Program-made: the position numbers and the translations under genes
Shown: positions 18,599-58,668 of the stretch, in pieces
Position numbering within the stretch: the first letter of the stretch is position 1
How the letters are laid out: the number at the start of each line of letters is the position of its first letter
The notes under the pieces: model-generated
What the model was told of the DNA's origin: nothing
The model's input: only the letters and a program-made list of their open reading frames with translations
Databases searched by the model: none
From: Sordaria brevicollis
Taxonomy: Eukaryota > Ascomycota > Sordariomycetes > Sordariales > Sordariaceae
Reading direction: 5' to 3'
NCBI GenBank assembly: GCA_033439795.1
Contig: JAUTDP010000003.1
Coordinates: 1,674,001-1,738,000, forward strand
Length of the DNA: 64,000 bases

Positions 18599-20103
18599 CT
18601 AGCCAATCTCACTTCCCTTACTACCTCCATCCATACCATACACACTCCCCCCCTGACTCCCAGGTACCTCAAAAGGCCTGTGCACATCAAGAAAACAACA
18701 CGTCCCCCTCCCCCCCGACCCATCCGCACTTGGGTGTATTTCCTCCACAGGCATCCTGCAGCAACTCCACAACCACAGACTAACTCCATGTCTTCCCTCG
18801 CTCGACTTGAACCTCTGCCCGGGATGGTACCGACACTCCCCCCACACGCGTCTCTTGCTCGGATCAAACGCCCTGTTACATCCCTTGCACCGCAGCAAGA
18901 CTTCCCCTGTTTTTCCAATTCCTTTTTCACTGCGGGAGTTCTGGTAGTGGCTAAGCGCAGCACTAGAGGTAGAGGTACTATGCGCAATGGAACCTTCATG
19001 TTGTGACCCACCACCGCTCGAGGACATATTCCGCCTTTTGGCCGAAGGTGGTTGTTCTTGAGCTTGTTGTTGTGCTCTGGCGGCTTCTTGTTGCGGAAGG
19101 GGGTGCATGTCGTCGTGATAGCCGAGGGGCTGCGGTTGTTGTTCTTGAACCTGTTGTTGTTGTTGTTGTTGTTCTTCGGCGGCGTGTTCGGCGATTCGTT
19201 TTTGCGGAATGAGATATTGATGGTGTTGGTGGTCGACGACGACCTGTTGCTCTTCCGAGGCGGTTTTATTGCTGGGAGGTTTGGCTACCGGTAGACCGGA
19301 GCCTACGGTTTGGCTCCCATGTCCTGGCGTTATCGTTGCTGAGATGCCACTATTGCTCGCCCCCGCCGGGGTTGTGGTGGAGTAACTTGTGATGTTGTTG
19401 GCATCGTACATGGGAGCGACTGGTACACCGGAGCCCACGGTTTGGCTCCCATGTCCTGACGTTACCATGCCTGAAAGGGCATTGTTTGCCGCTGGGGTGG
19501 TGTCATAACTTGTGAGGTTGTCGGTATCATCTTGATAGACTTGAGCTGCAAGCAGACCGAAGCCCACGTTTTCGCTTCCACTTTCTGGTGTTATCGTTGC
19601 TGACAAGTTGCTTCTCGCCGCTGGGGTAGCGGCGTAGGTTGTGCTGTGGTTGGCATCAAGGTGGTCCTGCGGAAAAGGATACTCGAGGGGCTGTTGATCC
19701 TGACCCGATTGTTGCTGAACCGATTGTTGCTGAACCGATTGTTGCTGACTCGGTTGATCCTGACCCGGTTGTTCGGCTTCTTGTTCCGGAAAATGTGTGC
19801 GCAAGTACTGGAGCATCTCTTCTCCACCAAGCTCTTGTTCGGCGGCTTCAGCTGACAGAAGATCGTTCTGCGAAAAATCGTACTCGAAGGGCTCGGGATC
19901 TTGGGCGGCTCTGCTTTCCTCGGGGTAGGGGACATGGCTGGCAATCTGGCTGCTCGCGTCCACGGCGGTTTCATTGCCATTACCACTATTTGCCGCTAGG
20001 GGAGGGTTGCAACTTGTGCAGTTGTTGGCATCATTGCTGTTGGCGTGGGCTGCCCAGGCTGCCATGGCTGCTCGGATTGCTTGGGCTGCTTCTGGGGTCA
20101 TTC

Positions 20104-20134
<31 letters not shown>

Positions 20135-20335
20135 GGTGGTGGTGGTGGTGGTGTTAGTACCACTGGAAGGTGGAACTTGTAATAGTGCGAGTGATCGCTT
20201 AATAAATGACCTAACGTCGTGCCCACCTCGCAGATGGAGGAAGAATACCATATCGCGGATCATGGATTCGGGAGCGGTGTATATGCCGACAAGTTGTTCT
20301 GGTGAAACGGGATCAGGAGGTGGTGGTTCCGACAT
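18599..20335 (-). CDS. CHORD-like paralogue 1, intronless, Gln/Thr-rich
   Basis: A single frame of 578 residues, taking the ATG at 20335 (MSEPPPPDP) as start; an in-frame ATG lies 51 codons upstream. The N-terminal module reads TAPESMIRDMVFFLHLRG, like the other copies. Then come a 16-residue poly-Thr run, about three imperfect 50-residue repeats containing 'GSQTVGSG', and Gln-rich runs. The C-terminus has CKGCNRAFDP, then CRYHPG, WLWSCC and CCFLDVHRP in that order, giving C-x2-C, C-x2-H, CC and C-x4-H. That is close to canonical CHORD order and is not interrupted by the intron found in the other copies. Function unknown. The Gln/Thr/Asn-rich middle may be disordered or aggregation-prone. Confidence 0.75.
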
Positions 20336-21130
20336 GTTGGATGAGAGCTTTGGCAACTGAAATACTTGGGAAAGAAGTGATGTGTTTATGGGATAACCAA
20401 AAAGAAGCAAATGCAAAAAATGTAACGCCGCGACGAGTGGGTTGTTTGGAAGAGAAATTGAGACATTGAAGCAGACTAATGGGAGCAACGAAAGTTATAT
20501 GGCGGTGGAGGTCCATGACGTGTCCGCCCCAGAGGCACCTTCCTCGGACCTTCTCTACCTCTATGTGATGATGCAAGGGCGGGCAGACTCTCTTACCCAT
20601 TTAACAGTGGTGAACCTCTGCCCCTTCCCTTTTCTCTCAGGTTTCAACCCACCACGTCCCGTCCTCTATCACCAATCCACCATCGCTCCATCCACATGAA
20701 CCTCTCAAGCTGTCCCCAAGTGCAACCCCCCGAGCAACCGAAGTATGAACTGTTAAGGAGATCGGCCGGGAAGCCTTCTTCGTCCTGAGGGGCGCACATT
20801 CTGCTTCCGAGGGAACTCGCGATCGCTCGAACCGCGGAGCACGGAAGGCCAAACCCTAGTGAATGATAACAAACAGTCAGCATCAATCCTCATCCAACCG
20901 AATAATCTCATCAAACAGATGCGAGTAGTTGAAGCAACGGTCATCACCGTGTTTCCCCATCGCAGATGTTCGAGGGATTCACGAGGGCATGTTCTCGCCG
21001 AGCATAAATGACGACCCGAGGCAGGGCCGAGAGGAGCTGGAAGTCAATGCGGGTAACATACCATGGGAGGTGATCAAACGCAGACCTCACGATCTCAGGG
21101 CGTCTCCTTTGCCTGGGCCTGAGCCTAAGC

Positions 21131-21970: not shown

Positions 21971-23456
21971 TTATTCCCCGTTATACCTCTCGTCGTTCTC
22001 TTCCACCTTATTAATTTTATCCTTCCCGTTGCTCTTGTCTTTCCCGTTCCCCTCGTCCTTTCCATTCCTCTTATCCTTCCCCTTCCCCCCTCTCTTCCCC
22101 CTCCTCCTATTCTTCCCATTGCTTTTATCCTTCCCGTTCCCCTCGTTCTTCCCGTTTCTCTCGTCTTTCCCGTTCACCTCGTCCTTCCCCTTCCTCTCGC
22201 CCTTCCCGTTTCTCTTGTCTTTCCCGTTCCCCTCGTCCTTTCCATTCCTCTTGTCCTTCCCCTTCCCCCCTCTCTTCCCCCTCCTCCTGTTCTTCCCATT
22301 GCTTTTTTCCTTCCCGTTGCTCTCGTCCTTCCCGTTCCTCTCGTTCTTCCCGTTTCTCTCGTCTTTCCCGTTCACCTCGTCCTTCCCCATCCTCTCGCCC
22401 TTCCCGTTTCTCTCGTCTTTCCCGTTCACCTCGTCTTTCCCCTTGCTCTCGTCCTTTCCATTCCTCTTGTCCTTCCCCTTCCCCCCTCTCTTCCATTTCC
22501 CCCCTCTCTTCCCCCTCCTCCTATTCTTCCCCTTCCTCTCGCTCTTCCCGTTCCTCTCGTCCTTCCCCTTCCCCCCATCCTTCTCTCCCCCCTCCTCGTT
22601 CTCGCCCCTTTTGTCCTCACCTTTCCCTTTCTGTTTATCACCAAGACCGCAAACATCTTCTTCCTTCCAATCATGACGCAGCCATCGACAACCCAAACTA
22701 TCCCCAATCTTCCCACAACACCTCCACGTAAACCCGCTGAGGTACGTCGTGCCCAAGTCGGTATCCGAAAAGTCGTCAGGTTGGATTATGATGGCGGAGC
22801 TCCATAGGGGGGCGAAGCGGTTGAGGTCTAGGATGCCTGGTTCATTATGCCTGAGGTCAGTTACCTGGCTGTCAAGGAGTTTGGTAGTTGAATAGGTAGT
22901 GTAGTGTAGAGCAATGGTAGGACTCGGTTGCAATGTGTACCTAAGGAAGGTAAGGACACTCACCAGGATGAAACCAATAACGATCCATCCCATCCTTGGG
23001 ATCATATAGTTCCTTGCATTGAGTGCAATTCTTGAACCCCTTGAAAGCACTTTTCAGCGGGTCCAGGATCTCTTTATGTGTTTCGTCCTTTCCGGATTCA
23101 TCGCCACTGGTGGCCATCTCCTTTTCGCCGCAGTCATTATTGGTAGTGGTGGTCGTCTCTTTTTCGCCGGAGTCCTTGCTGAGGTTGAGGATCGCCTTGC
23201 CGCTTGGTGGAAGTAGTGGCTTCGGGAGTTGTTCTGGACGGCTGCCGTGATAGGTAAATCTGTTGAGTCGATCTTCGACCAGCGCCTTCACATCGCCGGT
23301 GGCCTTGGGGTAAATTGACAATAGAATGGCACGGATGGTCAGGGCTGGGGCTTCGAGGATTGCCTGGATTGTCTTGGAGTTTTGCGCGTAGGAGTTGTGT
23401 GGAGGGCGCGGATGGCTTGGTGGACACGGATCGTTTGCCTGGTCTGAGTCTGGCAT
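21971..23456 (-). CDS. CHORD-like paralogue 3 with long Lys/Gly/Asp repeat tail
   Basis: Exon 1 is 23456-22964 and exon 2 is 22836-21971, joined in phase 1 across a 127-bp intron; 452 residues. The start is ATG 23456 (MPDSDQAND). The N-terminal module is APALTIRAILLSIYPKATGD. The zinc-binding half-sites are CTQCKELYDP and FHPG; the third Cys is replaced here (DRYWFHPG). After the intron come SGFTWRCCGKIGDSLGC and a His in LRHDW. The last 230 residues are an 18-bp minisatellite read as variants of KDERNG, strongly basic and acidic in alternation. The missing Cys makes intact zinc binding doubtful. Confidence 0.75.
22020..22590 (-). repeat. 18-bp coding minisatellite
   Basis: Tandem 18-base units encode K-D-E-R-N-G variants inside the C-terminus of paralogue 3. 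A larger block of several units plus KNRRRGKRGGKGK is itself repeated about three times, showing higher-order duplication. The frame is open throughout. Confidence 0.85.
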
Positions 23457-23887: not shown

Positions 23888-24809
23888 TCACTCGTCATCC
23901 TCGTCGCTTTCCTCCGCCTCGTGCCACTCGCGTTGCTCACAACCCCTCGAGTCGCCACTCTCTCCGCAGCAGTCCCAGGTAAATCCTCCGGGACAATCAA
24001 TACGCCAGTCCTCGGTATCCAAATCGTACTCAGACCCCGAGCCTGACTCCCAAGGATCGATGCACGCGTCTTCACGCCAGGCGCGAGATAGGCGGTTGAA
24101 CTCCATGTCGCCTAGTATAAGAGAACCGTAGTTATCGTCAGCATGTATCAACGACTGGGTTGAGGAGGGCTGTCCGTGAGCCTTGGATAATTGACTTACC
24201 GAGATGCCACTCCTCACAGGGACTGTAATCACTGTATCTGTCATCATCTTCGGCATCAGGATCGAACTCTTCCCCGCAATGGATGCAAAGCTTCCACTTC
24301 TTCTGCGGTTTTTCCTGCACCCCCTCGCTGGCTTTTGACTTCAGCGGGTTATCTCCTGATCCCTTTGCGCGGGAGGTGCTGTCGCGAGTTGTAACTGCGG
24401 GGTGCAGGTTGTGTTGGGCTTGAAGGTTCTCGATAATGGTGAAGTCAGAAGCGCGATCCTCAATCAGGGAGTTGAGATCCTCATTTGCCACTGGCTCGTG
24501 GTTCTCCTCCGAAGTCTTCAACTTCTTGTGGTCGTTGTCTGGAGTCTCATCACGCTTGCGCTTCCCCATGTTGGCCGGTTGGTTAGTGGCTTGGGACGCT
24601 GTGGCTGGGAGAGTGGCCCGGTGTCCGATGGGCATGTTCGGCTTGCTCTCATTCTTGGGATCGGCGGAGCGTTTCCTGCTCTCGTTGGGACGGTTTAAGG
24701 AAACCTTCGGAGCAGTGGCGGTAGTTGTATCGGCAATCTGCTTGTTCTTCGGTGTCGATACGTGAGGAGGCCGGACGCCCTGCGATGTGGGCTTCGTGGG
24801 TTTTGGCAT
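23888..24809 (-). CDS. CHORD-like paralogue 4
   Basis: Exon 1 is 24809-24200 and exon 2 is 24111-23888, with a phase-1 GTAAGT..CTAG intron; 277 residues. The N-terminal part is a Lys/Arg/Pro/Ser-rich linker with possible nuclear localisation patches (MGKRKRDE). The half-domains are CIHCGEEFDPDAEDDD and CEEWHLG, then after the intron DMEFNRL, CPGGFTWDCCGESGDSRGC and EREWHEA-like residues, with an acidic end. The usual His-Pro-Gly has become His-Leu-Gly. An in-frame ATG 46 codons upstream would add a hydrophobic segment; I prefer 24809 by analogy with paralogues 6-8. Confidence 0.78.
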
Positions 24810-25274: not shown

Positions 25275-26046
25275 TCACTCGTTGGCTTCTAGCGTGGCCT
25301 CGTGATAATAACGGCTCTCACATCCCTCAGACGGCCCTATCTGAAGGCAGCAATCCCATTTGAATCCGTCGGGTAAGTTCATTCGCCACTCTGCAGTGTC
25401 CAAAGTTGAGCTCATCGAAAATAAGTTCAAAGGGACGGGAAAGCCGGCTCCGCGCCAGGCGCTGGAGTTGGAGTTAATCTTCAAGACACCTATATGACAA
25501 TCGGGGTTTGTGTTAATTCCCGGTAAGGATTCGAGGCTCAGGTTGCATAGGAAAGTTCCCCAGGGAAATGGGTTGAATTATGTAGAGGTAGGTAGGCTTA
25601 CCGGGATGAGATTTGCAGTGGATGAAACCACCTCTGCGTTTGGCCTCGGGGTCGAACTCCTTCTTGCAGTGACGGCACACCTTCAGCTTCTCCTCAGGCT
25701 GCTTCGACTTATTCTTCGGCTCCTCGTCCAGCTTCTCCGTCGCTTTTCTCTTGGAGGGCGGGTTATCTCCGGATGTCTCTTTGCTGGAGTCAGTATTGGT
25801 AGTCTTGGGAGTCGTGGTAGCCGTGGTAGTTGAAACGCTGCGGGTCTGATTGGATTGGAAGCTCGCGACAGCGCTGAAGTAGGAGACGGATTTGTCGATG
25901 AACGATTTCAGTTCAACGTTGCCGTTATCATAGACCGACAGCAAGGCGGCGAGGATGCTTTGGGAGGGAGCTGCGACAATGGCATCGCGAGGATTGTCGT
26001 TGCGCTCACTCTCCTGTGAAGCCAGAGAGCTCTGTGCGTTCGTCAT
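25275..26046 (-). CDS. CHORD-like paralogue 5
   Basis: Exons 26046-25602 and 25489-25275 join in phase 1; 219 residues. The N-terminal module is APSQSILAALLSVYDNGN. A Ser/Thr then Lys/Glu-rich linker follows. The first half-domain is CRHCKKEFDPEAKRRG and CKSHPG; the second is LPDGFKWDCCLQIGPSEGC with YYHEA. All expected Cys/His positions are present. No other domain is visible, and the cellular role is unknown. Confidence 0.8.
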
Positions 26047-27559
26047 TTTGAATGATGCGGAGAGAATGACGAGAATGACGAAAAGCAGATGGAAGTTGGG
26101 GAAGTTGAATGCCAGATTCTGGCGAGCGACTCATGCGTTGCGACTTTTCGTGGCGGAGTGAGGAATTCAGTCGGATTTGGATCGAGGGTAGAGGTCTGGT
26201 CAGATAGAATTGGAGGGGTGATTCCAGATAAGCAACGGGACCACAGAACGCGAAAGAAGAACATGGGGGTTGCCTGCTCAACTGATAGCGCGTACCTTCC
26301 AGCGTGTCAAGGTTGTGCTGCTAAACCTCCATCCGAAAGTCTGCGCGCTACCGAACAGCGAGGCAAGGCTGGCAAACGACATGGCCAGATCCTCTGATGC
26401 CACTGTTATGTTCTCCACCGCATGGCTTTGATCCAATCGCTCTCGTGTTGTCCAATCCCGCACCCTCCCAACCACGCGTTTCCGCCGCAAACAACCATGT
26501 CCGATTGCTCCCGGAGAAGTGCCCTCTGGAAGTTGACGGTCATTACAAGGTGCAAAATGTTTGGGATCGGCACGACTACGAGCCGATGTGTTGTACCGGA
26601 CGTAGTCTTCGCGGGTGACCCCGAATACATATAGTCCTGTGTTGACAATGGTATCAGCGCTGCTCAGCGGCTCTTACACGGGAGAGAGTTGATTAAACGG
26701 GTGGTGTTCGTCTGCGTGCCTAAATGGGCAAAACACTTGAGTTCCGTATCGCTTGGATCAACATCTCTGCCGCATGGAACTCTAAACCTGCTTGCTCCTC
26801 AGTGCCGTATGCGGGATTTGACTCTCGTCCTGGTGTTTGCTTCCGGGGTCATTCCTTTTTCGACTTATCATCCAGAGCTGCAGACACGAATTTGGTCTTC
26901 TTCGAGTCCTCTCCGTTCGACTGATCTTGCTTCCGTTTCCCATGTCTTGGTCGGTAGTTCAATCTTCAATGTATTCAGGCTCAGGGTCTGAACTCTGAAA
27001 AGGCAGATTTGGTGCTTTTGCTGAGTGGCTTCGGTCTGTCAAGTCTATCGGTGGCAACTAACACGGGCAAATGAGGGAGGGAGATACTGCTGTGATTCTA
27101 GGGGACAGTCCGTTCGTATATGAGGGCTGGGACTGGCGGTGAAGTGCGTATGGATCCGTTGTTTTCCATTTGGCTTTTCATCGTAAAGGCACACAAGTAG
27201 TCAAGGAGCATACGGGAAAGAGAACCGATGGTTCAAAGAGGCGCCAATGACTTAAAGCTATTTTCTCGTTTGCAAGTTGTCCTTTGACGAAAAGATTTTC
27301 TTTTCCCTGTCCAGGAATTGTGCACAAATCCTTGTGTGGGCTATGAGGGTACAACTCTGCCCTTCCCGCGTGTTGGAAGGTGTCATGAAGGGAAGGGGCA
27401 ATGCAGGATTTCCCTTGGTGACTGTCGTTCCTTCCTTTGTTCTGCTACCTAACTACACACGGCAGCTCATCTTGGAGTCAGGAAAGCGGGATCCCATGAC
27501 ATTAAGTTGCACCAAAACTAGAAAGTCGATTGGAGTTGCTTAGATGACCAACATTAGTG
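26047..27559. other. Intergenic region between paralogues 5 and 6
   Basis: No ORF here shows the family motifs or another recognisable domain. The sequence is of ordinary GC content with no RIP signature. It includes the promoter side of paralogue 5 (26047 upward) and the 3' flank of paralogue 6. Confidence 0.45.
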
Positions 27560-28238
27560 TCAACGGCGGAACTCCCTCTCCTTGCAGCCCTGCACGATCT
27601 GGATCTTTCCGCAACAATCCCAGATATATCCGTCCACCTGGCAGTCCGCATGGTGTTCCATCAGGTCGAAATGATCAAGGCCGCGCGTGTCAACCTTCCA
27701 GCAGGGAGCTGAAGGGTCCTTGACGGCTTTTCCTACAGACGTCACAACAAACGGCGTTAGTATAAGGAACCTGAACCGAGAAACAATTGACTCCGATCTT
27801 TCTCTTCGAACAAGTGTCGGACGGATATAGCGTACCAGGATGATAGTACCGACAGTCAAAGCACATGCGTCGATCTTCTTCATGTACTTCCAACTCTCCA
27901 TCGCACCTCCGACATCTCTTTGGGCCATCACAGTCCTCCTCGTCGTCGTCGTCATCATAGTCTTGGCACGGGTCCGGAGTATCCTCTCTGGCTTTGACTT
28001 TCTTCGGCTTCTTGTCGGGTGTCTCGTCGTTCTTGCGCTTCAAAGTGGAGGTGCGCTGGTCAGAGGCGCCGGGGTCTGGCTTCTTCACGTCCACGTTGCT
28101 GTTGTCACGGCGAGTCGCGGCTTTGGGTGTAGCGACAGGGGCAGGCATGGCTTCATCTGCAGTGGATTTGCGGTTTTGTTTCTGAGGGCGTGAAGAAACG
28201 CCGCTGTCGCGGATGCGTTTCTTGGATGCTTTCTCCAT
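27560..28238 (-). CDS. CHORD-like paralogue 6
   Basis: Exons 28238-27836 and 27732-27560 join in phase 1 (GTACGC donor, TGTAG acceptor); 191 residues. It begins MEKASKKRIRDSG, sharing its start with paralogue 7. A basic linker and an Asp/Glu run precede CRRCDGELEV, CFDCRYYHPG, then VDGYIWDCCGKIQIVQGC and EREFRR at the stop. The final His seen in other copies is absent, the chain ending two residues after Phe. It lacks the 'AP..R.VL' module. Confidence 0.78.
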
Positions 28239-28864: not shown

Positions 28865-31800
28865 TATAAAACCCCAACCCTTATTACCTTTGGCACCCTA
28901 TGGTACCTATATATTAAAATCCCCGTTTTACCCGCTAAAACCCTATACTTTGTATAAACGTTACATTTTACGAAAAAAAATAGAGCCCCAATAATTTTTA
29001 GAGTACCAAACTCGTAAAACCGCGTATATAGTTATATTGTTCGAGACTACCCTAGTATATTACGCTTTATTATGACGTACCTTAATTGAATAATATTGTA
29101 AAGTACGTCGCATTATTAAATTTCGTTAGTATTATTGTTAATTATTTTTAAATGCCTTTATATAATCGTATTCGTATTAGTATTTTTCGCCGGCGTCGGC
29201 GTCCGTTAAATAAATCTATTGTGACCTTTATATCGAGCGCCTCCTTTAATGGGCGCTTATAGACCGTTGAGATTATATTTCCGCTACTTAAGGAGGATTT
29301 CGATAATTTATTACGCGAATTCGTTTACTTCTATTAGTTCCGTCGATTTAGTATCGTTATTATATAATCGCTTACGTATAAAATTAAGAATCCAAATTAC
29401 CCGATATACGGTAAGATTTTTAAATATTAATATTAGTGCGATTATACCGTTTATAAGAAATAGGAATTTTAAAATCCCTATAGTAAACGCTATTATATTA
29501 TTAGTAAAGTCGTTAAAAGGTATCCGTTTCGTATTATTATTTTCGCGATTATTATTAAAGGTTGGAGATAGATAATTAGAGTGGTTAATAATATTTACGA
29601 GGATTACCCGCTATCGAAGTACTTCGATTATTATTTTTTTTTACGGGAAAGGGTATTATAGTTGGATTTAGAGGCGTTCGAATAGGTAGTAACCCTATTC
29701 GATAAGAGGGAGATAATTATACGTACTATCCGCTCCGTTATTAAGGAAAAGTACTCTTAATACCCTTTAAAGTAATCCGACTTCGTTAATATACGTAGTC
29801 GTATACACCGCGCTTCCCGCTAGGGTTATTAAAATACTTAAGTTTTCGTACGGTCTTTGGAAATTAATAAAGATACTGTTTATTATAATATCGATTAGGA
29901 CAACGCCGATTAAATTATCCTTTCGAATACCTTTTAGGTATTAGACTATTAACGTAAAATATAGGTTTGAAACCTATTTACGATATTAATCGATACGACG
30001 TATAAAATAAATTAGTATTATTTTATTATAATATAAAGTATTGTAATAATTTATAAAAAGATTTTTATATTAATTTTTTAAGTAGTTTTAAATAACGAAG
30101 GAATTACGGGGTTTACGTACCTTATTAAGTAAATTAAACGCGCCGCGTTAGTTATAAGTATTAATTTCCTTAATATTATTATTATTAATAGAGACGAACG
30201 GTTAATCGAAGTATTGTAGACTTATTTACTTAATATTATATTTTAACGTTATATTTAATATATTAATTATAATATTATTAAGAATATTAAGAAGTATTAG
30301 AAGCGATTAGGCGATACCCTCCTACCCGACGATAGCGACGATAGCGACGACGACGATAATGATAGTAATAATAACGACGATTTATCCGATAATTTTATTT
30401 TTAAGGATATATAATAAGAGGTCGATAATATTTTATTATTAAAAAATTAAGCGGATATTATAGAATTAATTGAGCGTTATCGACGTATATATATTAGAAT
30501 AAGGATTAACGCTAACTTCGAAGACCTTTAATTAAATAGCCTTATTAATATACGAATAGCGTTATTTTTTATATAGTAATATATAATTTATTCAATAACG
30601 ACCGAAGAATTCGAATAGGTATACTAGATTTTCGTTAATAAGTTTAGTAAGTCGTAAGCGCGTATTATTAAGTATATCGACGCGTAATTAATACTTATTA
30701 AAGAGATTTAAATTAATTATTATATTAGCGATATTTTCAATTGTAGTTAAAAAATTACGTTATTTAACGAATTTAATAATAATTAATTTAAATCGTTCAA
30801 CGTTTCCTCCCGCGGTAGTTTTATTAACTTTTACGATATTATAACCTAATATATTAACGTTTAATACAATTACTATAACGGCGAATTTAGTAAAGTAGAA
30901 TTACGAACTAGAATTAATTAGGGAGCTATTAAATAGCTTAATTAATGCCGTAACGAATTCTCTTCTTAGGCACTCGATTTGCTAGAGCGCTAATATAATT
31001 AATTAATCGTTGCGCTACTTATTATATACAATAGGGTAACCGTTTACGAAGGTAACCTTCTCCTACTTTATATTAGGCGGTTTATTAAGTAGTATAGTTT
31101 GCTTTACGTTTACGATATAGAGGAGGCGGTTAAAATTAAATAAACGGTCTTTATCGAGAGGGACGATTATTATTTATTTTGGTATTTTAATTAAATTAGG
31201 GTAGGTTTCCCTTTATTTATATATCTTTATTCTCGATTAGTCCTTATATTAATTGCCTATAAAGGATTCGGTTAATAAGTATTTACGATTTAAACCGGTT
31301 AAGAAGGGTATACCCAAAGGAAGGCTACGTAATAAGGGATTATTTAGTAGGAAGGAGGCTATTTTCGTAGTTAAATTACCTAACGTTAAGTAACGCGTTA
31401 TACGTGCGCGCGTTAGAGCCGCCGCTTCCTAAATTTAGTAAACCTAGTAGACTTAGTAGACTTAGTAGACCTAATAGACTTAATAGACCTAGCCCTAGAG
31501 TTAACGTCGTTAAGTATCCGCCCCGCGGGGTCGTTCGAATAATATTGCCCTTATATAGGCGTTAGCGCGCCGTAATTATTCTTAATACGAATTTAGCGAT
31601 AATATTGAGACTTTCGATGTTAAGGATGCCGTTTAATTGTAGTTATAGTTTAGGGTAGTTAAGAAGGCGACTAAGGGTGGGATTAAGAAAGCGATTAAGG
31701 GTAGGATTAAAAGGGTAACCTATATACTTAAAGCGACCCGACTTAGCGAATCCACTAATTAGTTTGGGTATAGAGAATTTATTTTAAATATTACCTCTTA

Positions 31801-32897
31801 TATTATTATTAGTAATAATATTGAAGATAGTTTAAATAGTTTAAATAGTTTAAATAGGGGTATTGCGTTTAATATTGCTTATTCCTCCTTTTTTATTGAT
31901 ATTAATTAATTCGAAATATTACCCGATTATATCGACTTTATTGTATTACGCTTTTTAAAATAATTCGAATAACGAAAGTTAATTCCTTTTATCCTATTAA
32001 TTATTTCCTACGACGACGCTACTTATTTCGATAGTATATTTATCGGTTATAATTCTTAGGAGTTGGATGTAGACGAGCGGCTAGTTAATAAGGAGGATAA
32101 AGAGGTAATAAAATACGCTATAGAGAAGGAAAGATAAAAGGAGGAGGAAAGGATAAGGAAGTATATAATTATAATAGAGGAGTAATAGTAAGCCTACTTC
32201 GCTAAAGAGGTAAAGTTATAAAGGAAGGCCGCCGCTTATACCCTACCCGGTCCGTTATATTACTTTTAGAGAACGTTACTTAGGGAATTGGAGCCCCCTT
32301 ATAACGTTACTTTTAAAAAGGATAGGGAATGGGTAGAGTAGCGTAAGGGTAAACGTTTTGGTTATTTAAAATTATAGCCTATAATAAAGAAGGAGTTTGG
32401 TCCTAATAAGCCAGTAGTCTAGCGCTAGTGGGGTAGATTTGCTGCCCCGTTTTATAATACCCCTTTTATTTCTAGGCGGATAGAAGTATTACGCTATTTA
32501 TATAACGCTTAATAAGTTTAAGAATATAAGAAAATTAAATATAGGGCTAATTAGGCTAAGGGTAGAAGTTGGGAATTTTACCGCGCGGTTAACTTTGAAT
32601 TAGAAGGGTATAAGGAGGAGGAGGATTACGACCCTAATTTGTACGTTATATAGTATAGGAGAGAAGGTAGTAAATAAAACCCTATTGAAATTGAATAGAA
32701 TAGAATAGAGTAGAGTAAATAGATAGGTTGGTTGTATTGAGATTTTTATTCTGGGATTGCTATGTTCAATACTATGAAATTATTACGACTTTGGCGGTTA
32801 CGGCGCGTTTATTAGATTGCTAAAGAAATGCCAAATAATATAAGAAAACGGCATTTTACTATACAAAACAGGGAAACTTTGATGTCAGTTGTTAGAG

Positions 32898-32948
32898 TGG
32901 GGGGGGATGTGCCAGTAAATTTGAGGGGATGTGTCGGCAGTTTTACCC
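32898..32948 (-). repeat. Right terminal inverted repeat
   Basis: Inverted copy of the left end, adjoining the right TTCCAATT duplication. Paralogue 7's shifted frame reads into it. Confidence 0.85.
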
Positions 32949-32961
32949 TTCCAATTTACTA

Positions 32962-46900: not shown

Positions 46901-49900
46901 AAACTATTCGTATCCTTCCTTAACCCGAATACGATTAAACGTAATAATAATGTCGAATTTAATAAAAATTTTCGCCTTACAAATAACATCGAATATTTCC
47001 TTAATTAATAACAACGGGTAACGGGATTTTATAATAACGTTATTAATACCGCGGTAATCGACGTAAATATAGACTCCGCCGCTAAATTTTTTAACAAAAA
47101 AAATAGGGACTATAATAGCGGATTAAAAAAACCGGATAAATTTCTTTTAAAAATTAATATTAATCCATTTCTTAATTATAACTACTTTAATAAGCGTAAT
47201 ATATCGGGGCTTTATATTAAATAATTACTATTTTAATAATAATTCGATTTTATAATTATAAACGCAATACGGCGGGACTTCTTTTATTAAACGGAGAAGG
47301 AAAACTTTAATATTTTTATAATATTTAATTAAGATTTTAATTTTAATTTCGTCGTTAAATTTAATAAACTTATTACTCTTTTCTAAAAAGATTTTTACAT
47401 CCTCCTTAATAATTTTAATAATATAAACTTATTTAAAAATTTCTTTATATATAAGAATATCCCGGCTAAAATCCCCTATTAAGTTTAATACTCTTATTAA
47501 AGTAGCGGCTTCCTTATCTTTATTGGAATTAATATTATTAACTATTATATTAACGAATAAATAAATAAATAGCGGTAAAAAGTATTTATATTACTCCCCT
47601 TTACTATTTATAATATTATTTATTATATCCTTTATTAATTCCTCGACGTCCATTAATTCCGAAATCGCAAATAACCGTTCTAACGTAGCGTAATTAATAA
47701 TTAAGGATTTAAAATTCTATTTTTCATATATATAATTAAACGTAATAGCGTTAAATTCTTTAATATCGGCCGTATTAAACGTATTATTAATACATATAAA
47801 ACATTATAATTATATTAAACGTACCGTTCTAATAAAAATACGGCGGCTATTTAAACGAATATATAATTTATAAACCGCAGAGCTCTTAATTTTAACGAAG
47901 AGGGTAACCGTACCGGAAATTCTTTATATTTTAATCCCAATTCAATTAACGATTAAAGCCTTTATAGGGTTATTAATACGGCGCGGAGAATTATTATATT
48001 ATTTAACTTTAAAGATTAGGGAGGGAATTAAGGTAAATTTATTCTTAAGGGTTAAAGAAGAGGGTAATAATTTAAAGATTAACGTTATTCGTAGGGTAGT
48101 TCGAAAAGCGGGCTCCGGTCGTAAAGCTATTTTAAAAGATTTAAGGAACGGAAACGGCAATAGGGTTAAAATCGGGGTATTTAATCGTAATAGTAAATAA
48201 ATAATTACTATTATAATACAATTAATAAAGCTTTTAAATATAATAATTTATTTATTAGAAAAATTTGAGGGGAAGTAACGGCCGCGGTATTAGGTAAAGC
48301 GGACGGTATAATTATTATAATTAATTTTAAATCGATAATATTATATTTATAAGAAGCCGAAAATAATAGAATAATTTTTAAAAATATTATAAACGAAAAA
48401 AGTAATAATCTCTATATAAAAACTAATATAGAATCGGGCGTAGACTCCTTTAAAAATAATACCTTTAATAATTCTATTAATAAAAATTAATTTCTTTAAT
48501 TATAAAAATTTAAAACGCGGGAAATTATTCTTTTTTATAAACGAAAAATTTAAAAAGGCGTAAATAAAATAACTACTATTTATTAAAATAATATAATAAT
48601 TTTTACACGATCTAGTATATACGTAAAATAATAAGAATATTAAATTTAAAGATACGGAACTATTTAAAAATTGAATTTATATTTCTTCTAAATCCTTTAA
48701 TTTATAATTTGAAATTTACTTCTTTAATAATATTAATTTAGGCTTCTATACGTAATTATATATAGAAATTAAATATTTCCCTAATTATTATAATATTCGC
48801 CGCTAATAATTTATTTAGTAGGCTAAACGGGAGCCGGATAAATAACCGGGGCGGGAACCGGGTTAATAACGGGGGTATTAGCGCTACGAACGTTAATAAT
48901 ATTATTATTACTACTATTATTATTTCTACCGCGATTATAATTATTATTACGACGGTTATTCTTATTAATAAGGTTTTAAGGACCGTAATTAACGGAACGA
49001 AAGTAATCTTTAATTAAATAGTTAAATTGGCTATAATAACGATAAAGGCTATTATATATATATTAATCCAATATATTAAAGTAAATAATACTAATAAGGC
49101 TAATAACGTCGAAATCCATTTTATTATTGCCTTAATTAATAATACGGTTATTAAAGTTAAAAATAGAATTAAAATTACTAATAACGGAATTAAAATTACT
49201 ATTAGAATTAATATTAATATTATTATTAAGGGCGCTACTAAAAATATTACAAGCTATATAGGCGCGATAATCGGCATTATCCTAAACGTAGGCAATTTTA
49301 CGGTATATTTTTAACCATTTATCCTAAACGTTATTAATGGGGGGTTTATAATAAACGCCGGCGTTATAAATATATTTAGAAATTTTATTCTTTAAGTATT
49401 CAACCTTCTAAATTTTAATTAGGCTATAAATAATTATTAAAAACGTTAATTCTATTTCGAAATCGGTAAAATTCTTATTAAACTAATAATATTCGGTTAA
49501 ATAACGTTAAATATCCTATTTAATATTAATTATTTCGAAACGTTTAATTAAATATTATATAAATTCGGCGCCCGTTTTTTACTCCTAAACGTCTTTATTA
49601 TTCTTAATTATAATAATTTCGATAAAATCGTTAATACCGGATTTAAAATCGGGGCCGAATAATATAATTATACGTAGAATCTTCTAATATTCGTCCTAAA
49701 ATAATATCAGGTCGTAAATTTATTAAATTTAAATAATTATATATTAAGAATAAAAAATATAAATATATTTAACGGAGTCCTTTTTAAAACCGGTAAAAAC
49801 GGGGGGGTTAACGACCATTTATTTATAAATATTATTAATACCCGGAACGGCGGGGTTAAAGTTACTAAAATTAGAAAATATAATAACGGTTTAAATATTA

Positions 49901-50617
49901 AATTTATTATATTAAATTTTAAAATTAGAATATTCCTTTTAAAAAATAACGTACAACGCTTAAAAGTTTCTAAAATCGATAAAAATTATATCGAATTAAT
50001 TAATAAAATTATTATTCTAATCGCGAATAAATATATAATCGTTACGAAGGTATTAATAAATACGGTTAAATAATTAAATAATAAATGCGAAGGCGGTTTC
50101 TCTAGTAATTAAAAAGGCGCGGTCGAAATATTCGTAAAAGACGAAGCGGGGCTTTTTATTATCGCCAAAGTCTACGAAAATCTCCTTAATATCTTCGTCG
50201 GAAGCAAATTTATAAAAAGCGGCGTAGGCGATATTAACGTCGGGAATTAGGCTATTACTATTATTAGTAATATCGTATAAAGCTTCTAAAATAATAGCGT
50301 TATTAAGATTAATAAAATTAATATTAAAAACCGGAGTATTAAAGAGAATATTCAACGTATTATTAAGGGAGAAAATTATAAGGTCGCTATCGCTATCGTA
50401 AAATATAGAGAATAGTACAATTAAAATTACTTAATCGTCGTAAATCTTCTTATTTATTAAATATAGAAACCTTCCCTTATTTAATTAAATAAAGGGATTT
50501 AATAATAAAAGAAATACGTTAATTCGACAGCTCGTATATAGCGAGCGGGAAATAAGCGATTTATTTTAAATAAAATAAAATTACGTATAAACGTATTATT
50601 TTAAAAGTATAATTAAT

Positions 50618-50924
50618 TATTATAAGGATAATTAATATAAGGGTAGGTAATAGATATAAATATATATAATTATATAGAAGAAAAAAGAGGAAAAGGAAGA
50701 AAGTATACATAGGAGGCCCGCCCTTTATAGGGCGCGACGGGAACGCGCTGGTCACGCGCGGTTAAGTGACCCTAACCGTATAGGCGGTAAGCAGTGACGT
50801 AATATCCTATACGGGCGGGACTATCCCGAATATAATAGTACGTTTTAGGAAATAACTACTATACGAGTACAAATACGTAATAGCAATATACTAATCACGT
50901 GCAGTCACGGCTAGGCTTGTGACA
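50618..50924 (-). repeat. LTR (5' LTR of the element)
   Basis: 307 bp. Its GC-rich core (GGAGGCCCGCCCTTTATAGG) is shared with the other LTR. This copy keeps the CTAGGCTTGTGACA end and more CpA/TpG in its inner half, so it was mutated less at that end. Confidence 0.9.
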
Positions 50925-53761
50925 AATTAATAGTTCTTCAATTAGCTAATTAATATAATTAATTTTATAGATATTAATAAAGTCCGCTTTAATATTTTCG
51001 TATTTAAAGTTAATTAATTCCCTCTCTATTTATCGAAGCCGATAATTAAAGTAGAAAACTAATATAATCTAATAAGCGGGATAATTCTCTATTTTATCTT
51101 TATACTATTTTAATTTTATTATTACTTAATCGATAATATATTCAATAGCCTCTATACTTTTATTAATTAAATCGTTAGCGTAGTCGACGGGTAAGCCATC
51201 CCCTAATATAATTAAAGGTTAAGAGAAAGCGATTATAATAATCGCTTAAGAAATTCGTATTAGTCGAAATAAAAATATTCGAAAGGGAGGAAGTAAGTTA
51301 GGTTAAGAATTAATAATTTTAATAAATAGCTTTTAAAAGTTTAAAATTAAGGAAGAGGGAATAGGAGGGGGGGGTACGCGCCTACGGGTAGTATAATTAT
51401 ATTAAAGTAATTTTTAAATAAAAGGTAATTATTAAATAGAGGTAGGAATCGAAGTAATTATATTAATATTAAAATTTAATATTTCTAATCCCTTAAACGG
51501 TTTAAATATAATATTTCCCCTAAATTTAACCCTTATTATCTATAACTGCTAAATAAATCGATAGAGATTAAATATAACGATCGAAAAGAAGGGAATTTAC
51601 GCTTTAAACTTCTTAGTAAAATCTTTAAACGGTCCTATTACCTCTATAATAGCGGTAAAAATACCCTAATTATTATTATTAAAATTATTCTTCTTTAATA
51701 ATTATTTTAAAGTATTAAAATAATTAACCGTTTTAATAACGTAATAAACGATATATTTACGTAATTTCTAAGCGCGGCGAATTATACAATAATTAAAATT
51801 CTAATACATTATATTATTAAAAATAACGTTAATATTATAAAAAATAGGGTTGTCGTCGTTAATAATAGTAAAGCCCAATTAAGGAAAGACTTTATTATTA
51901 TAAATATTATTACGGCTAAATTAAATAATTTATTTAAAATAAGTACGTTATTAAATACTTCGTCGAATAAATTAAATAATATTATAAAATCGATTAATTA
52001 ATTGAATTTTACGCTATTCTTATAATAAAGCATTTTCGTTTTTAATCAATAAGCGGGTAAATAAATTATTAAATTCGGGGTCGATTGCTTAGAGAAGTTT
52101 ACCCTTTATAGTAACCTTCGTATTAAAATTCAAAATATAATTAAAATAACGAAGGCGACGTATAAAAATTTCGTTTTCGAAGTTAACGGTAGTAAAGGAG
52201 GGGTAGAAACCTTTTATTATATAATAAATATAGCGGTTATTTATATTAACGTTATTGTATTAGAAATACGAAATATTATTAATAAAATTTTTAAATTATT
52301 TAATAATTTTAAGGATAATAATCGAAATATTCTCTTTACTATAATTACTATAAACTTCGTACAACCTTATTAAATCGTTTTTAAAAATACGCCGATTATT
52401 GATATAATAAATAAAAATCGAAAGGATAGTTAAACCGTTTAATAAAGTTTGGAAATCGAAGGAGAAATATTTTTTAAAATAAAAATCGGCTGAACGTTAT
52501 TTAAATCGATCGAAATAAATAATATATTTTTCTTAAATTTAATTAATTATAGTATAATAAAATTTAAGGAGTAACTAAGTAATTAAATTACTATTTATTA
52601 ATTTTAATAATACTTTAAATGTTCGGATTTTTAATAGTAATAAAAGGGAGCCTCGTATTAACGATTATCTCTATTACTAATTTGTAGAATTTATTACTAA
52701 TAAGTTTAATAATAAGGAAATTAGATTGTTTAAATATATTAATTACCGATTTAACCTTCTTAAAACCGCTAATATTATCCTAATTATTCGTATTATTATT
52801 ACTATCGGGCTCTTTAATATTATAAATACGTCGAGAATAAATAATATAAAATATTATAATACGAAAATTATAAAGGTTATAATAAATACCGTAATATTAA
52901 AATTTTCCTTTTATAATATTACTATCGAGTTAAATTAATATAATACTATAAACGCTAATAAAAAAAGTATATTTATAATGGCGGTCTATTTAATTCTCTA
53001 ATATATATTACTCTCCCTTAATTATAAAGTATAATTAAATAAGAATATCCGTAGGTAATTCTTCGATTAAAACTGCCTTTAAAAGTTTAAATTAAACGGA
53101 GAATTAAAAACGATTCGTTTATTTAAATTCCTCGATAATAACGTTATACGTAATAAAAGTATTAAGAGAAATAAAGGGCGTATTATTTATAATCGATAAA
53201 ATATCGTTAACGATTAATAGAGGATTAGGATCGGGGATAGTAAATATCGTAAAAAATAATATTAATAGCGGTAAATAACGGTTAATAATAATCCGCGGCG
53301 TAAAGGGGAATAAAGGAAGGGAGATTAATAAATCGAAAAATTAATTAAGAAATTACGTAATATTATAATTTAATTAAAGTACGTTAGCGATATAATTCTA
53401 AGGAAATATTAAATTTTATTATTATTATTGCGTATAAAACTCTAAGATTTTTTTTAATAATATAGGGTAATTTAGGAATTTATACGTTTTACGAATTGGG
53501 TATTACTAGGCACTAGCAATTAAGATATATATAGTCTTTTCGGGTGCCGGGTGGATTAATTTTTAAGGGTTGAAAAATATATATTTTACTAGCTATAACT
53601 TTAACCTAAGGATGGTCGAAACCGGCTAAGAAAAGGTTAAGTAAAGTCAAGTAAGTAATAAGTTTTACTTACTTATCAAGTATAAGTATGGACCTCTACT
53701 TATTTATTTATTTACTTATACTTACTTATACTTGAGGCCTATATTTGACTTGTTTCTAGCG

Positions 53762-54643
53762 TTGATTTCCTCCCCCTCCCCCTCCCCCTCACCCCCCTCC
53801 CCCTCCTCATTAGGGCTATCCCCCGGAAACTTACCATCCCCCCCATCCGCCGCCCTATGCCTCCCCATCACAAACCTATTATTAACACCATTGGGGCCTT
53901 AACTCCCTTCCTCCTGCAGCAGGCCGAGTACACAAACCCGCCTCCTGGGTTTTCGGTCCGGCAGAACTGGTTTGTCTTGGATCTCGTAGGGGTAGACCGG
54001 TAGAGGGGCATTTCTTGCTGGGAGGGGTGGTGGTTGTTTAGTTGCTTGTCGTCTGTTGTCGATGGGAAGTGGGTCAGTTTTTGGGTTTTGTATTGGGATA
54101 GATGGATGGGTGTGTTGGGTGTGTTGGGTGTGTTGGGTGTGGTGGGGGTGGTGGGGGTGTTGGGGGTGTTGGGGGTGTTGGGGGGGCTGGAAATGCGGAA
54201 AGGATAGGGATGGGAGGACGGGAGTCATTACGGGTTGAGATGGCGGGATGAATGGTTGTGGATGGGATGATTGGATCATGGAAAGGTGGGGAAATGGGCG
54301 GGATAGAGAACGGAGACTTACGAGGATGATACCTACACGTCTTCGAGTTATCGCCCAACTCAAACGGCTGGTTACACTGGACGCAGATTTCCGTGCGAGT
54401 AGCCTTTCTCTTGTTGTTAATGGATCCAGACCCCTGAGTCCCGTCGGCGGAGGCATCAGCGGTTTCAAGCTTGAGCGGAAACTTCTTGTCCAGCATCAGG
54501 GTCCTGATTCGGGCTTTGTATGTCTCGTCACCACAGAGAGCTCGAAGGACGGTGCGGACGGTGGTGTCGGGCGCCGTTTGGATGGCTTCCATTAGCTGAA
54601 GGTTCTTGAGCTCCTCGGGGTTGGGTTGGCGAGCGGGAGGCAT
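53762..54643 (-). pseudogene. CHORD-like paralogue 10, frameshifted and cut by a transposon
   Basis: Exon 1 (54643-54322) is intact: MPPARQPNPEELKN, module APDTTVRTVLRALCGDETYK, CVQCNQPFELGDNS and CRYHPR, then a GTAAGT phase-1 donor. In exon 2 the conserved pieces lie in different frames: DKP, then FCRTENPGGGFVYSACC, then VMGRHRAADG, implying at least two indels and loss of the G-C pair. The Gly/Glu-rich tail runs into the TIR element at 53760. The 3' remainder appears at about 43044-42985. The intron carries a GTGTTGGG-type minisatellite (54105-54185). Confidence 0.65.
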
Positions 54644-55237: not shown

Positions 55238-56095
55238 CTATATTTGAGTTGATCTGGTTTGGATACAGCGCTGGGCTGTTTGTAAGTGGGTGGGAACGCC
55301 TAGCTCCCGATTGCGGGCCACCGCCAGTTGTGTCTCCTTGAACTGTCGGATATTTTCTTTCTGAGCCTCGGAGGCGTCCTTATCGTCGTACTTTCCACGC
55401 TTTCCATCTGCAGCCCAGTGCTTTCCCTTCGTGCATCCAGGTGGTATGGATTCTTTCCCAAGGAACCCGCAGCAAGGGTATGTGAATCCAGCAGGATTTA
55501 GGTCACGCCAATAAGGCGTATTTTCGAACTTTCTGCCGTAACCGTAATGGCGCCACGAGCGGGCCGTCAAGTCGAGTTCCATGTCGTCTAAGCAAAGCAG
55601 GATTGCCCAAGGTTAGCACTCAACTCCCGTATCTCCCGTTGCACGCGGCGGCAGGCAGGTGTTGCGACAAGAACGTAACTCACATGGATGATACAGGCAA
55701 GTCAAGGACTTGACTCCCTCTTCGTCTTCGAGCTCCATTCCGCACCGAACGCATACTTGTTTCTCGACGGCCTTTCGCTTCTGAGACTGCCTGGAGCTTT
55801 CCCCATTCGCGCGAGTCGGTTCTTCTTCCATCGTGGCGCTGATAGTCGAGGAGTCGCTCTCTTCTCCGTCACTGATATTGATGATTGACAAGGCCTCATC
55901 CTCCACTGCCGGATCATATTCGTACTCTGTTTCGCAGCTCTCGCTCTCGACGTTCGGTGGAAGCTTGTCAAAGGCGCCCGCAATGCGACCCATCAGCGCG
56001 TCGTCTTCGGCGCATAGTGCTCGTAAGACTGCCCTGACGGCGGACTCGGGAGCGGTGTCGATAGCCGTGTTGACGACCACTCTTAGTCTGGCCAT
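55238..56095 (-). CDS. CHORD-like paralogue 11
   Basis: Exons 56095-55684 and 55587-55238 join in phase 1; 253 residues. Start ATG 56095 (MARLRVVVNTAI). The module is APESAVRAVLRALCAEDD. After an acidic linker come CVRCGMELEDEE and CLYHP. Exon 2 opens YDMELDLTARSW and carries NPAGFTYPCCG, GCTKGKHWAADGKRGKYD, then a charged tail. All eight Cys/His positions are present. The downstream flank near 55080-55140 has a GGACCGG/CCGGTCC-rich patch. Confidence 0.85.
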
Positions 56096-56824
56096 GGCGA
56101 GTAATTTGGGTCTTTCAGTTTTCGCGGCGAAGTTGGTGTGTTGCGGGTGATTGATGTTTTCGTTCTTCTGTGTGTTTGTTGTCAGGTTGGAGACTGCTGC
56201 GATTTCGTTTGCTGATGATAGACAACGGGCGGATTGATTCCATTGGTGGTTGGTGGAATGGTGGAATGGTGGAATGGTGGTGAAAGAGTTGGGGCTCACG
56301 GAATTCACAAGTTGCCATACAAAATAGGTGGGAAGTTGTGAACTTTGTGAGCCCCATTTCTATCACCACTCTGGGTGGCTTGCTGGCGCCAGTTGAGCCC
56401 CTAGCTGCAGCGTTGCCAAGACGCGAACGGCTCCAGAAGGAAAACGTCCCTTTTCAACATCCTACGATGTTGCGTTTGGACGGCCAAAGAGGCACCAAGG
56501 CTTTCTTGAGAACTGAATCCCCGAGGTTTAATCCTCGTCGACAAATCACTGCCTGCTGCCGCGAGTTTTGCACTGACGGGCAGGGACTTTGCCGTGTAAG
56601 TGCTGTGATGTGGTCAATGCGTTTTCCCACAGTCAACCCTCGGACTCCGTGGATGGGATTGACCTGCGATGTGTCTCCAATATATAACCCTCGCCAAGAC
56701 CTAACGACGACGCGACACCGCACTTGCACCCGCCATCTTCGGCGCTTCGTCCATCTTCGTCTTCTGTTGAGCTCCAACTCCGGCCTTCCCCTCAACATCT
56801 TCTTCCGATCTGATTCTACACCGG

Positions 56825-57677
56825 CTAGTCATACCTCCCCCGCTTTCCATCTGCAGCCCGGTGCATACCCATTGTGCATCCCTCGTTGATACTGGAACCC
56901 GTCTCGCCGCAACAAGGGAACGTGAATCCGTCGGGATTCTGCTCGCGCCAGAATGGAGTATCGTCGTACTCATCGCCGCAGTCGGCCCAAAAGTCGGAGG
57001 CAAAGTCGATCTCCATGTCCTCTATACCCGCCGGTTAAGGTCAGCAACAAACTTTGCCTCGATGTTCCTATTCGGACGAGGAACCCACCTGGATGATACC
57101 GACAAGTCAAAGAGTCGTCTCCTTCCTCGAACGACTCCTCGCATTGGATACAAATTTCCATCCGGGGGGCCTTGCGCTTCTTATTCCTGAAGCTTTGTCC
57201 GTATGAGCGCCCCCACTCTTCGTGTGCCGAAGTGTAGACTGTGGAGTAGCCAGTTTCTTCAGCGGATTGATCTTCTTCTTCTTCTTCTTCCTCGTCCTCG
57301 TCCTCTCCCTCGTCCTCCCTGTCCTCCCTGTCCTCCCCGTCCTCCCTGTCCTCCCCGTCCTCCCCGTCCTCCCCGTCCTCCCCGTCCTCATCGCCCTCCT
57401 CTTCCTCCTCTTCCTCCTCTTCCTCCTCTTCCTCCTCTTCCTCCTCTTCCTCCTCTTCCTCCTCTTCCTCCTCTTCCTCCTCTTCCTCCTCTTCCCCCTC
57501 TTCCCCCTCTTCCCCCTCTGCTTCTTCTTCGCTATCGTTATCCAGAGGGAGCTTGGAAAGCATGTTTGCAATGCGCACCATCAACTCATATTCAGCGCAT
57601 AACGCTCGCAGAACTGCCCTGACGGTCGAGTGCGGGGCAGTGTCAATGACCGCAATGACGGATTCTCCTAGGGCCAT
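56825..57677 (-). CDS. CHORD-like paralogue 12 with poly-Glu
   Basis: Exons 57677-57089 and 57021-56825 join in phase 1; 261 residues. It starts MALGESVIAVID with module APHSTVRAVLRALCAEYE. The middle is a long Glu run followed by GED/RED repeats. Then come CIQCEESFEEGDDS and CRYHP; exon 2 has EDMEIDF, NPDGFTFPCCG, GCTMGMHRAADGKRGRYD and stops there. This is the cleanest full signature in the array. Close to paralogues 11 and 13 in sequence, consistent with local tandem duplication. Confidence 0.85.
57390..57520 (-). repeat. 9-bp coding repeat (poly-Glu)
   Basis: Tandem TCCTCTTCC units (plus-strand reading) encode Glu within paralogue 12. All length changes of whole units keep the frame. Confidence 0.9.
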
Positions 57678-58004
57678 GGCGGGCTAAATCTCCCGGTTAC
57701 GCAAATTTTCCTGTGTTGTCGGTTGGTGTTTCGTTCTGGCTCCGTGGTCCGGTTCCAATCGCGGGAACTTTTGCTTGGTGACGAGGAGGGCAAAAAAAAT
57801 AGCCGGTGGATTAATCGCGCCGACTCTCAGCCCTGGACCCACCTGCAAACACCACGACCGCGTTACATCGCCAAGGCGCAAATGGGTTGCTTCCGAAGAA
57901 ACGAGAGCAAGCCAACATTCCTGTCTCGGATTGTGCTGCATCGCCGTTTCATTCTCGACAGTCGCGACAATTCCTTTCCCTCTTCGATTCAGCCCCTACA
58001 ACAC

Positions 58005-58668
58005 TCATTCCTCCCGGCCCATGCTGGTGAAGTACCGATGCAACGAATGATTCCCACTTCCAGGGCCACCACGCCTTTGCCTCCCCGTCCTCTTCTCCTC
58101 AAAACCCCCCAGCATCCCACTCTTGATTTCCAAAGGCTTATATCTCCCGTTCTTCCCATCTGCCACTTCATGTCTCCCCACCATGCACCCCTTGTGAGCC
58201 CTCGACCCTGGATCTCCGCAGCAGGGGAAGCTAAATCCGTCAGGATTTAGTTGACGATGGTCAGGCGTGTCTCTTATTCCCATGTGAGTTGGCCAGTCGA
58301 TCCATTTATCTGGGGATATGTTGAGGTGCATGTCATCTACACCAACACCGGAGTTTGTTAGGTCCTTAATACTGTGAGCCAGCCACGTGTATAAGGGATT
58401 TACGTGGGTGATGGCGGCAGCTGAAGGATTCATCGCCTTGATCGAAGGTAGAACCGCATTGGATGCAGATTTCTTGGTGAGCTGCTTCTTGCTTGGTGGT
58501 GTTGGCTTGCTCCAGATCCTCGTCCTTGAGCGGGAGTTGTGAAAGCATCTGTCCTATCCGCCGCTTGGTGATGTGGTCGGCGCAAAGGGCGCGTAGGACA
58601 CTGCGGAGTGTGGAAGGCGGCGCGGTGGTGATTGCCGTGATGATTTCTTCATCACTGAGGGCAGCCAT
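58005..58668 (-). CDS. CHORD-like paralogue 13
   Basis: Exons 58668-58404 and 58336-58005 join in phase 1 (GTAAAT donor); 198 residues. It starts MAALSDEEIITAI with module APPSTLRSVLRALCADH. The first half-domain is CIQCGSTFDQGDES and CRHHP; the second is HDMHLNI, NPDGFSFPCCGDPG, GCMVGRHEVADGKNGRY, then a basic Gly-rich tail. All Cys/His positions are kept. The far upstream flank (about 59083) shares CCAAGACC-type sequence with that of paralogue 11 (about 56690). Confidence 0.85.

Follow-up and report, generated by a model that had tools for sequence, protein, structure and literature searches.

The array on contig JAUTDP010000003.1 of Sordaria brevicollis is a real and hitherto undescribed family, and its domain is, judging from sequence, probably a remote and altered relative of CHORD. 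We analyzed a stretch of 64,000 nucleotides from this contig (the window), in which eleven motif-bearing copies (p1-p11) all lie on the minus strand between 18.6 and 58.7 kb (Table 1). This confirms the motifs, single strand and 40-kb extent given in a preliminary description. Our literature search, including CHORD domain with Neurospora, found no paper on the family; subscription journals were mostly outside its coverage.

Table 1. Family copies, a possible remnant and AT-rich blocks, in window coordinates
Feature	Position	Strand	Structure and remarks
p1	18599..20494	-	631-aa open frame; first half-domain 18818-18907; found by profile and leave-one-out
p2	21971..23456	-	exon 1 23456-22964, exon 2 22836-21971; third Cys ligand missing
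p3	23888..24809	-	exon 1 24809-24200, exon 2 24111-23888; eight ligands complete
p4	25275..26046	-	exon 1 26046-25602, exon 2 25489-25275; eight ligands complete
Possible decayed remnant	26400..27060	-	tblastn E 0.35 and by eye; weak
p5	27560..28238	-	exon 1 28238-27836, exon 2 27732-27560; without last His
AT-rich block, strong RIP signature	28900..33000	.	between p5 and p6
p6	32885..33778	-	exon 1 33778-33226, exon 2 begins at 33132 and runs into a frame break; second half (33060-32965) lies in a different frame, last His missing
p7	34293..35322	-	exon 1 35322-34767, exon 2 34639-34293; eight ligands complete
AT-rich block, strong RIP signature	43000..53900	.	between p7 and p8
p8	53868..54643	-	exon 1 54643-54322, 269-bp intron, exon 2 54052-53868; stops after Cys-Cys, last Cys and His gone
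p9	55238..56095	-	exon 1 56095-55684, exon 2 55587-55238; eight ligands complete
p10	56825..57677	-	exon 1 57677-57089, exon 2 57021-56825; eight ligands complete
p11	58005..58668	-	exon 1 58668-58404, exon 2 58336-58005; eight ligands complete

Two half-domain profiles, built from the window copies themselves, detected eleven first halves in the window and second halves in p2-p11. The second half of p6, which was absent from its profile's input, still scored E 7.5e-6. When each copy was left out in turn and the window rescanned, the best background was exceeded in 16 of 20 half-domain tests, the exceptions being three first halves (p2, p5, p6) and one second half (p8). At least one half recovered each of p1-p5 and p7-p11, and p6 was recovered only in the first scan, with the profiles of all copies. 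By profiles, leave-one-out scans and tblastn, the thirteen paralogues of the preliminary description are reduced to eleven copies and one weak remnant, in which a first-half-like stretch (26780-26679) and a second-half-like stretch (about 26500-26440) were read by eye. Within the window, profiles, tblastn and reading by eye gave no confirmation of a thirteenth copy. A C2H2-finger-like stretch lies near 40.85 kb and may be the extra one counted.

At the DNA level, the pattern G-F/Y-x-x-x-C-C-G has 12 exact matches in 53 Mb, seven of them inside the window; the reversed control pattern has 13 in 53 Mb, a figure for the genome total only. Two of the five matches outside the window scored with the second-half profile (C22, E 4.3e-4; C1, E 0.045). 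Both were left out of the copy count, as their similarity extends little beyond the motif, and no first half was seen by eye alongside the C22 match. A genome search with p7 alone retrieved only p7.

Ten copies (p2-p11) fit a phase-1 intron at the same codon, right after the His-Pro of the first half. Splice sites were picked by hand, and three of the ten models match database proteins letter for letter: p3 is P0014 (B0T20DRAFT_476907), p4 is P0001 (B0T20DRAFT_494884) and p5 is P0002 (B0T20DRAFT_494886). There is no intron at that place in p1, where the first half is followed by ...LWSCC without G-C or His; p1 is a remnant or an altered copy.

Each window copy carries one domain, with eight Cys/His positions that run C,C,C,H,C,C,C,H in the family alignment; six of the 11 copies have all eight. 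Pairwise identity is 94.5% at the ligands, a value that partly reflects ascertainment because the copies were first located by motif, and 22.6% elsewhere. Outside the ligands the family is therefore fast-diverging, as first described, and dN/dS is below 1 in all pairs with computable dS. Across 26 aligned rows, partial proteins included, just two of the ligand columns are invariant, and another two reach 90%. Ahead of the domain lies a segment predicted to form three helices; p3-p5 and p8-p10 also have a basic, NLS-like stretch of the KRK type there. Some copies have acidic stretches before or after the domain, among them a long acidic tract N-terminal of it in p10. C-terminal to the domain are only short or low-complexity tails, built from an 18-bp tandem repeat in p2 and an Asp-Glu repeat in p7. 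Among eight window copies scanned with our own pattern, a SIM-like stretch was found only in p2 and p9, the latter carrying IINISDGEESDSS.

The ligand order is that of CHORD (RAR1/CHORDC1; PF04968; PDB 2xcm, 2yrt; RAR1 zinc ligands from the accessible text of PMC2935968). The C-x2-H-P, C-C and C-x4-H spacings are also alike in many copies, with exceptions at C-x3-H (p3, p5, p6) and C-x5-H (p3, p4). In contrast, the first knuckle is C-x2-C in the array and C-x4-C in CHORD, His to Cys-Cys spans 37-49 residues rather than 14, and Cys-Cys to Cys spans 8-11 rather than 15. The array domain is single, whereas RAR1 and CHORDC1 have paired CHORDs in tandem.

An unrelated zinc finger could have converged on the same ligand order, and the differing first spacing, the long insert and uniformly marginal scores are consistent with this. 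Single window copies match CHORD poorly: in a Pfam scan of p4, p5, p7, p9 and p11, only p7 returned CHORD, at 8 bits and in third place after ADK_lid and Zn_ribbon_recom. CHORD reached 16.5 bits in p1 (E 0.013, its sole family at E<=0.1) and 18.1 bits in P0003, and all three scores are below the curated Pfam cut-off of 24.6 bits. A domain-profile search placed RAR1 third (E 0.55), behind a C2H2 finger. However, CHORD ranked first in Pfam, PDB-sequence and Foldseek searches with family profiles or with q1 (contig C23), and direct profile-profile comparison of the family with CHORD gave 93%. Moreover, relative P0028 combines the insert of the array family with a precomputed CHORD label and a C-x4-C first knuckle, which is C-x2-C in all others. 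These data make convergence unlikely. The preliminary label "CHORD-like" thus survives as a remote relation, seen with family profiles and q1 and weak in single copies. The two checks proposed with that label gave divided answers: comparison with Pfam CHORD yielded the 93% between profiles but bit scores under the cut-off for single proteins, and structure prediction placed CHORD first, marginally, for the q1 model (the other 31 Foldseek matches had E 2.5 or more) but found no PDB match at E<=10 for the p4 model (mean pLDDT 69.5).

A fungal class with a single CHORD, Rex3, has been known since 2025 (PMC12129344, accessible text). Compared by description with Rex3/REXO1 in that text, the array proteins are alike in having one CHORD each with a predicted three-helix segment ahead, and the structural score to RAR1 is similar. 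The DEDDh exonuclease domain that follows CHORD in Rex3/REXO1 is missing in the array copies; Pfam matches of the array proteins scanned included no exonuclease. A search with the EloA-BP1 profile gave one weak match, below cut-off, in which neither CHORD nor exonuclease was seen by eye. Nor did the p4 model give a PDB match at E<=10 that would mark the three-helix segment as a KIX domain.

Homologues were found in Neurospora, Copromyces, Pseudoneurospora and basidiomycetes. In the tree, array subgroups join Copromyces, Pseudoneurospora and Neurospora proteins (p8 groups with Neurospora hispaniola P0012), and the placement of p5 and p7 is unsure. The family was first described as lineage-specific, but it also occurs in basidiomycetes, and the pairing of subgroups with other genera indicates that the array is old. 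Proteins P0022-P0027 and P0029, with Lenzites, Peniophora and Cristinia among their sources, have the same domain and a DWDEDxHGxxDTPENRR-type insert as in q1; VIDLT or IIDLT stands near the N-terminus in six of these seven and a KRK stretch in two. Blastn pieces among nine copies share 67-72% DNA identity (p5 and p6, 72% over 79 bp), apart from one 41-bp piece at 78%. A recent burst was rejected on this low DNA identity and on the subgroups joined to proteins of other genera.

Alternatively, the array might be a decaying family of little function, the relics of an old duplication beyond the reach of RIP. Five of 11 copies (p1, p2, p5, p6 and p8) lack a ligand or have a frame break, there is the weak remnant besides, and database proteins were retrieved for only p3, p4 and p5 of the 11 in a word- and length-limited search. 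Nevertheless, dN/dS is below 1 where computable, six copies keep all eight ligands, and several subgroups have relatives retained in other genera. We consider general decay quite unlikely.

The reading we favor, with modest confidence, is a birth-and-death family of Sordariaceae in which each protein has one CHORD-type domain and acts as an adaptor without a RAR1-type Hsp90 co-chaperone role. Each protein would fold into a CHORD-type module holding two zinc ions. In RAR1 numbering, the ligands of site 1 would be both cysteines of Cys-x2-Cys, Cys 3 and the final His; those of site 2 would be the His-Pro His, both residues of Cys-Cys and the final Cys. In the array copies, the RAR1 Hsp90-contact segments (A185, F187, H188, W194, F204, F207, M208) are replaced or shortened: 37-49 other residues stand in for the contact loop, and there is less sequence following Cys-Cys; because these two segments hold Hsp90 in RAR1, no RAR1-type co-chaperone is expected. 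The proteins may instead be small, probably nuclear protein-protein adaptors whose variable insert sets the partner. The SUMO-interacting-like VIDLT that starts the basidiomycete-type relatives points to putative SUMO-linked partners. Both the function we infer and the predicted zinc-binding are probable on sequence grounds. The array would have grown long ago by same-strand tandem duplication through unequal crossing-over, after which the copies may have drifted under RIP-acting identity and some decayed. If this is correct, a further CHORD class spans asco- and basidiomycetes without an Hsp90 interface, and the zinc module of CHORD serves more widely as an adaptor.

A more specific proposal, that Sordariaceae use a diversifying array of CHORD-derived adaptors to tell self from non-self or to defend the genome, with the insert picking a partner per copy in step with regional NLR and HET genes, strikes us as improbable. 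If true, the array would be a counterpart in fungi, despite RIP, to the clusters in which plants diversify components of immunity. Fungal RAR1-type CHORD matches occur in 111 of 122 NLR-bearing strains (accessible text of PMC4986451). It is very improbable that the array proteins act together with Hsp90 and Sgt1 in stabilizing NLR or HET immune-type receptors. The CHORD relation would suit such a role, as would two genes of the region: an NLR gene (alpha/beta-hydrolase-like, NACHT-like, ankyrin; 9475-14357) at a distance of about 4 kb from the array, and a HET gene located about 17.8 kb past the window's right end. But the Hsp90-contact segments are altered, an ordinary two-CHORD gene is present elsewhere in the genome (C25), and the three frames scanned beside the C23 pair (PBD-kinase, haspin-like kinase, eRF1-like) include no NLR.

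The array copies have no RIP signature, and the AT-rich blocks between them have a strong one. Positions 29300-32300 are part of a dispersed repeat with at least 85 matching pieces genome-wide, itself included, and across ten frames within the array or next to it, the only Pfam family at E<=0.1 was CHORD, in p1. In these tested parts, the sequence agrees with the description of mostly repeats and hardly any other genes between copies. RIP acts from roughly 80% identity over some hundred bases. We considered and rejected a RIP paradox because DNA identity among the copies does not exceed about 72%, apart from the one 41-bp piece, and none of them bears a RIP signature. What had been called unusual for a genome with RIP is thus the size of the array, not the survival of copies that lie under RIP-acting identity. 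Across 37 Sordariales genomes, NLR clusters comprise two to five genes, and only 16 of 272 are made up of paralogous copies (accessible text of PMC12258605). The array is large for a RIP genome and is a case of a tandem family outliving RIP through divergence.

The window spans bases 1674001-1738000 of contig C21. A six-frame motif scan combined with frame reading located eleven first half-domains, one in each array copy (p1-p11), and second half-domains in p2-p11, all on the minus strand. The spliced p3, p4 and p5 are identical, letter for letter, to database proteins P0014, P0001 and P0002 of Sordaria brevicollis, respectively. For p2-p11, the best-fitting splice sites, which we picked ourselves, in p2 from several possible acceptors, follow the first base of the codon after His-Pro (phase 1). 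An identical GT-AG junction occurs in q1, one of two family members on contig C23, and the intron position of its partner q2 reads like that of q1. Leave-one-out profiles succeeded in 16 of 20 half-domain tests, missing the first half in p2, p5 and p6 and, in p8, the second; the second half of p6 was recovered at E 7.5e-6 by a profile built without it. When single copies were used to search the 53-Mb host genome, p3 found p4 (3.6e-13), p2 (3.9e-4) and p10 (7.5e-4) and, weakly, p5, p7 and p9, while p11 found p10, p8, p9 and the C23 pair. The same search with p7 returned no match besides p7.

The complete set of eight ligands is present in 6 of 11 copies (p3, p4, p7, p9, p10 and p11). The third Cys is missing from p2, the last His from p5 and p6, and both the last Cys and last His from p8; p1 is without the G-C/His end, and the reading frame of p6 is broken. 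Among the nine copies aligned (p1 and p6 excluded), pairwise agreement is 257/272 in ligand columns, a figure partly built in because the copies were located by these motifs, and 563/2489 in the other columns.

The preliminary description placed all copies on one strand, which holds for the array; a frame-broken copy outside the window, r1, lies on the plus strand. No other copies were accepted within 30 kb to either side. A second-half-like match on contig C22 (E 4.3e-4) was not counted, as its similarity barely exceeds the motif. The thirteenth copy of that description is perhaps a C2H2-finger-like stretch.

Features in and around the array
Feature	Location	Strand	Remarks
r1, frame-broken family copy	about C21:1658571-1659049	+	15 kb left of window; halves E 0.0036 and 0.0017
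C2H2-finger-like stretch	window about 40800-41250	-	internal stops; frame reading
18-bp tandem repeat, x31	window 22020-22583		within frame of long C-terminal tail of p2
NLR-type gene	window 9475-14357	+	left of array; alpha/beta-hydrolase-like frame (below cut-off), then NPHP3_N/NACHT-like and ankyrin repeats
HPP transmembrane protein	window 17537-18340	+
Frame matching glycosyl hydrolase family 17	window 62570-63913	-
HET-domain gene	L044:7795-9903	+	about 17.8 kb right of window
Kynureninase-like and indoleamine 2,3-dioxygenase frames, neighbours	L041:7882-9504; L042:1458-2828	-; +	left of window

The homologue search, which detects only proteins sharing five-residue words so that species without a match may still have the family, returned 30 proteins at E<=10 among 7986 scored candidates. 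Named sources are Sordaria, Neurospora, Pseudoneurospora, Copromyces and the basidiomycetes Lenzites, Peniophora and Cristinia. In a tree of 33 rows (excluding p1, p6 and r1, the database counterparts of p3, p4 and p5, and five sequences that were fragments or near-duplicates), the array does not form a single group (7 changes; 114 of 500 shuffles were equally low). Copy p8 groups with Neurospora hispaniola P0012 (99/90), p9 and p10 with Copromyces P0011 and Pseudoneurospora P0017 and P0013 (96/90), and p2-p4 with Copromyces P0019 and Pseudoneurospora P0016 and P0030 (95/99). The long branches p5 and p7 are uncertain in position, p7 falling weakly next to Cristinia (86/38). Both P0011 and P0019 are assigned to a contig of length 144707; given these equal sizes, the array is probably present in Copromyces too.

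The S. brevicollis genome has an ordinary two-domain CHORD gene (contig C25). From His to Cys-Cys, nine measured copies have 37-49 residues, whereas RAR1-type CHORDs have 14; after Cys-Cys, copies keeping that segment have 8-11 residues, compared with 15 in CHORD. PMC2935968 lists A185, F187, H188, D189, R190, R192 and W194 in the first RAR1 segment, and F204, F207 and M208 in the second, as contacting Hsp90 or its nucleotide. Because both contact-bearing segments are altered in length, the array proteins would be expected, judging from sequence, to lack a RAR1-type Hsp90 interface. Homologue P0028, which has a precomputed CHORD label, contains a second half-domain and, after it, a complete domain that has C-x4-C spacing; it is a possible link between the array family and classical CHORD.

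Predicted parts of the proteins are three helices and the zinc domain, to which some copies add acidic stretches and a basic stretch of KRK type. Close to the N-terminus, 6 of 7 basidiomycete-type homologues (P0022-P0027, P0029) carry VIDLT or IIDLT, presumably a SUMO-interacting motif. The array proteins may act as non-catalytic, probably nuclear adaptors; we lean slightly towards this whole chain, and consider the nuclear/SUMO step taken alone rather doubtful.

The composite RIP index is near +1 in the AT blocks spanning 29-33 kb and 43-54 kb of the window and -0.23 to -1.18 in the 11 copies. Bases 29300-32300 are part of a dispersed repeat with at least 85 matching pieces genome-wide, itself included. 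PMC10684091 describes HET genes and lineage-specific genes of N. crassa as clustering together; here, the NLR-type and HET neighbours are context for the array, not evidence of joint action.
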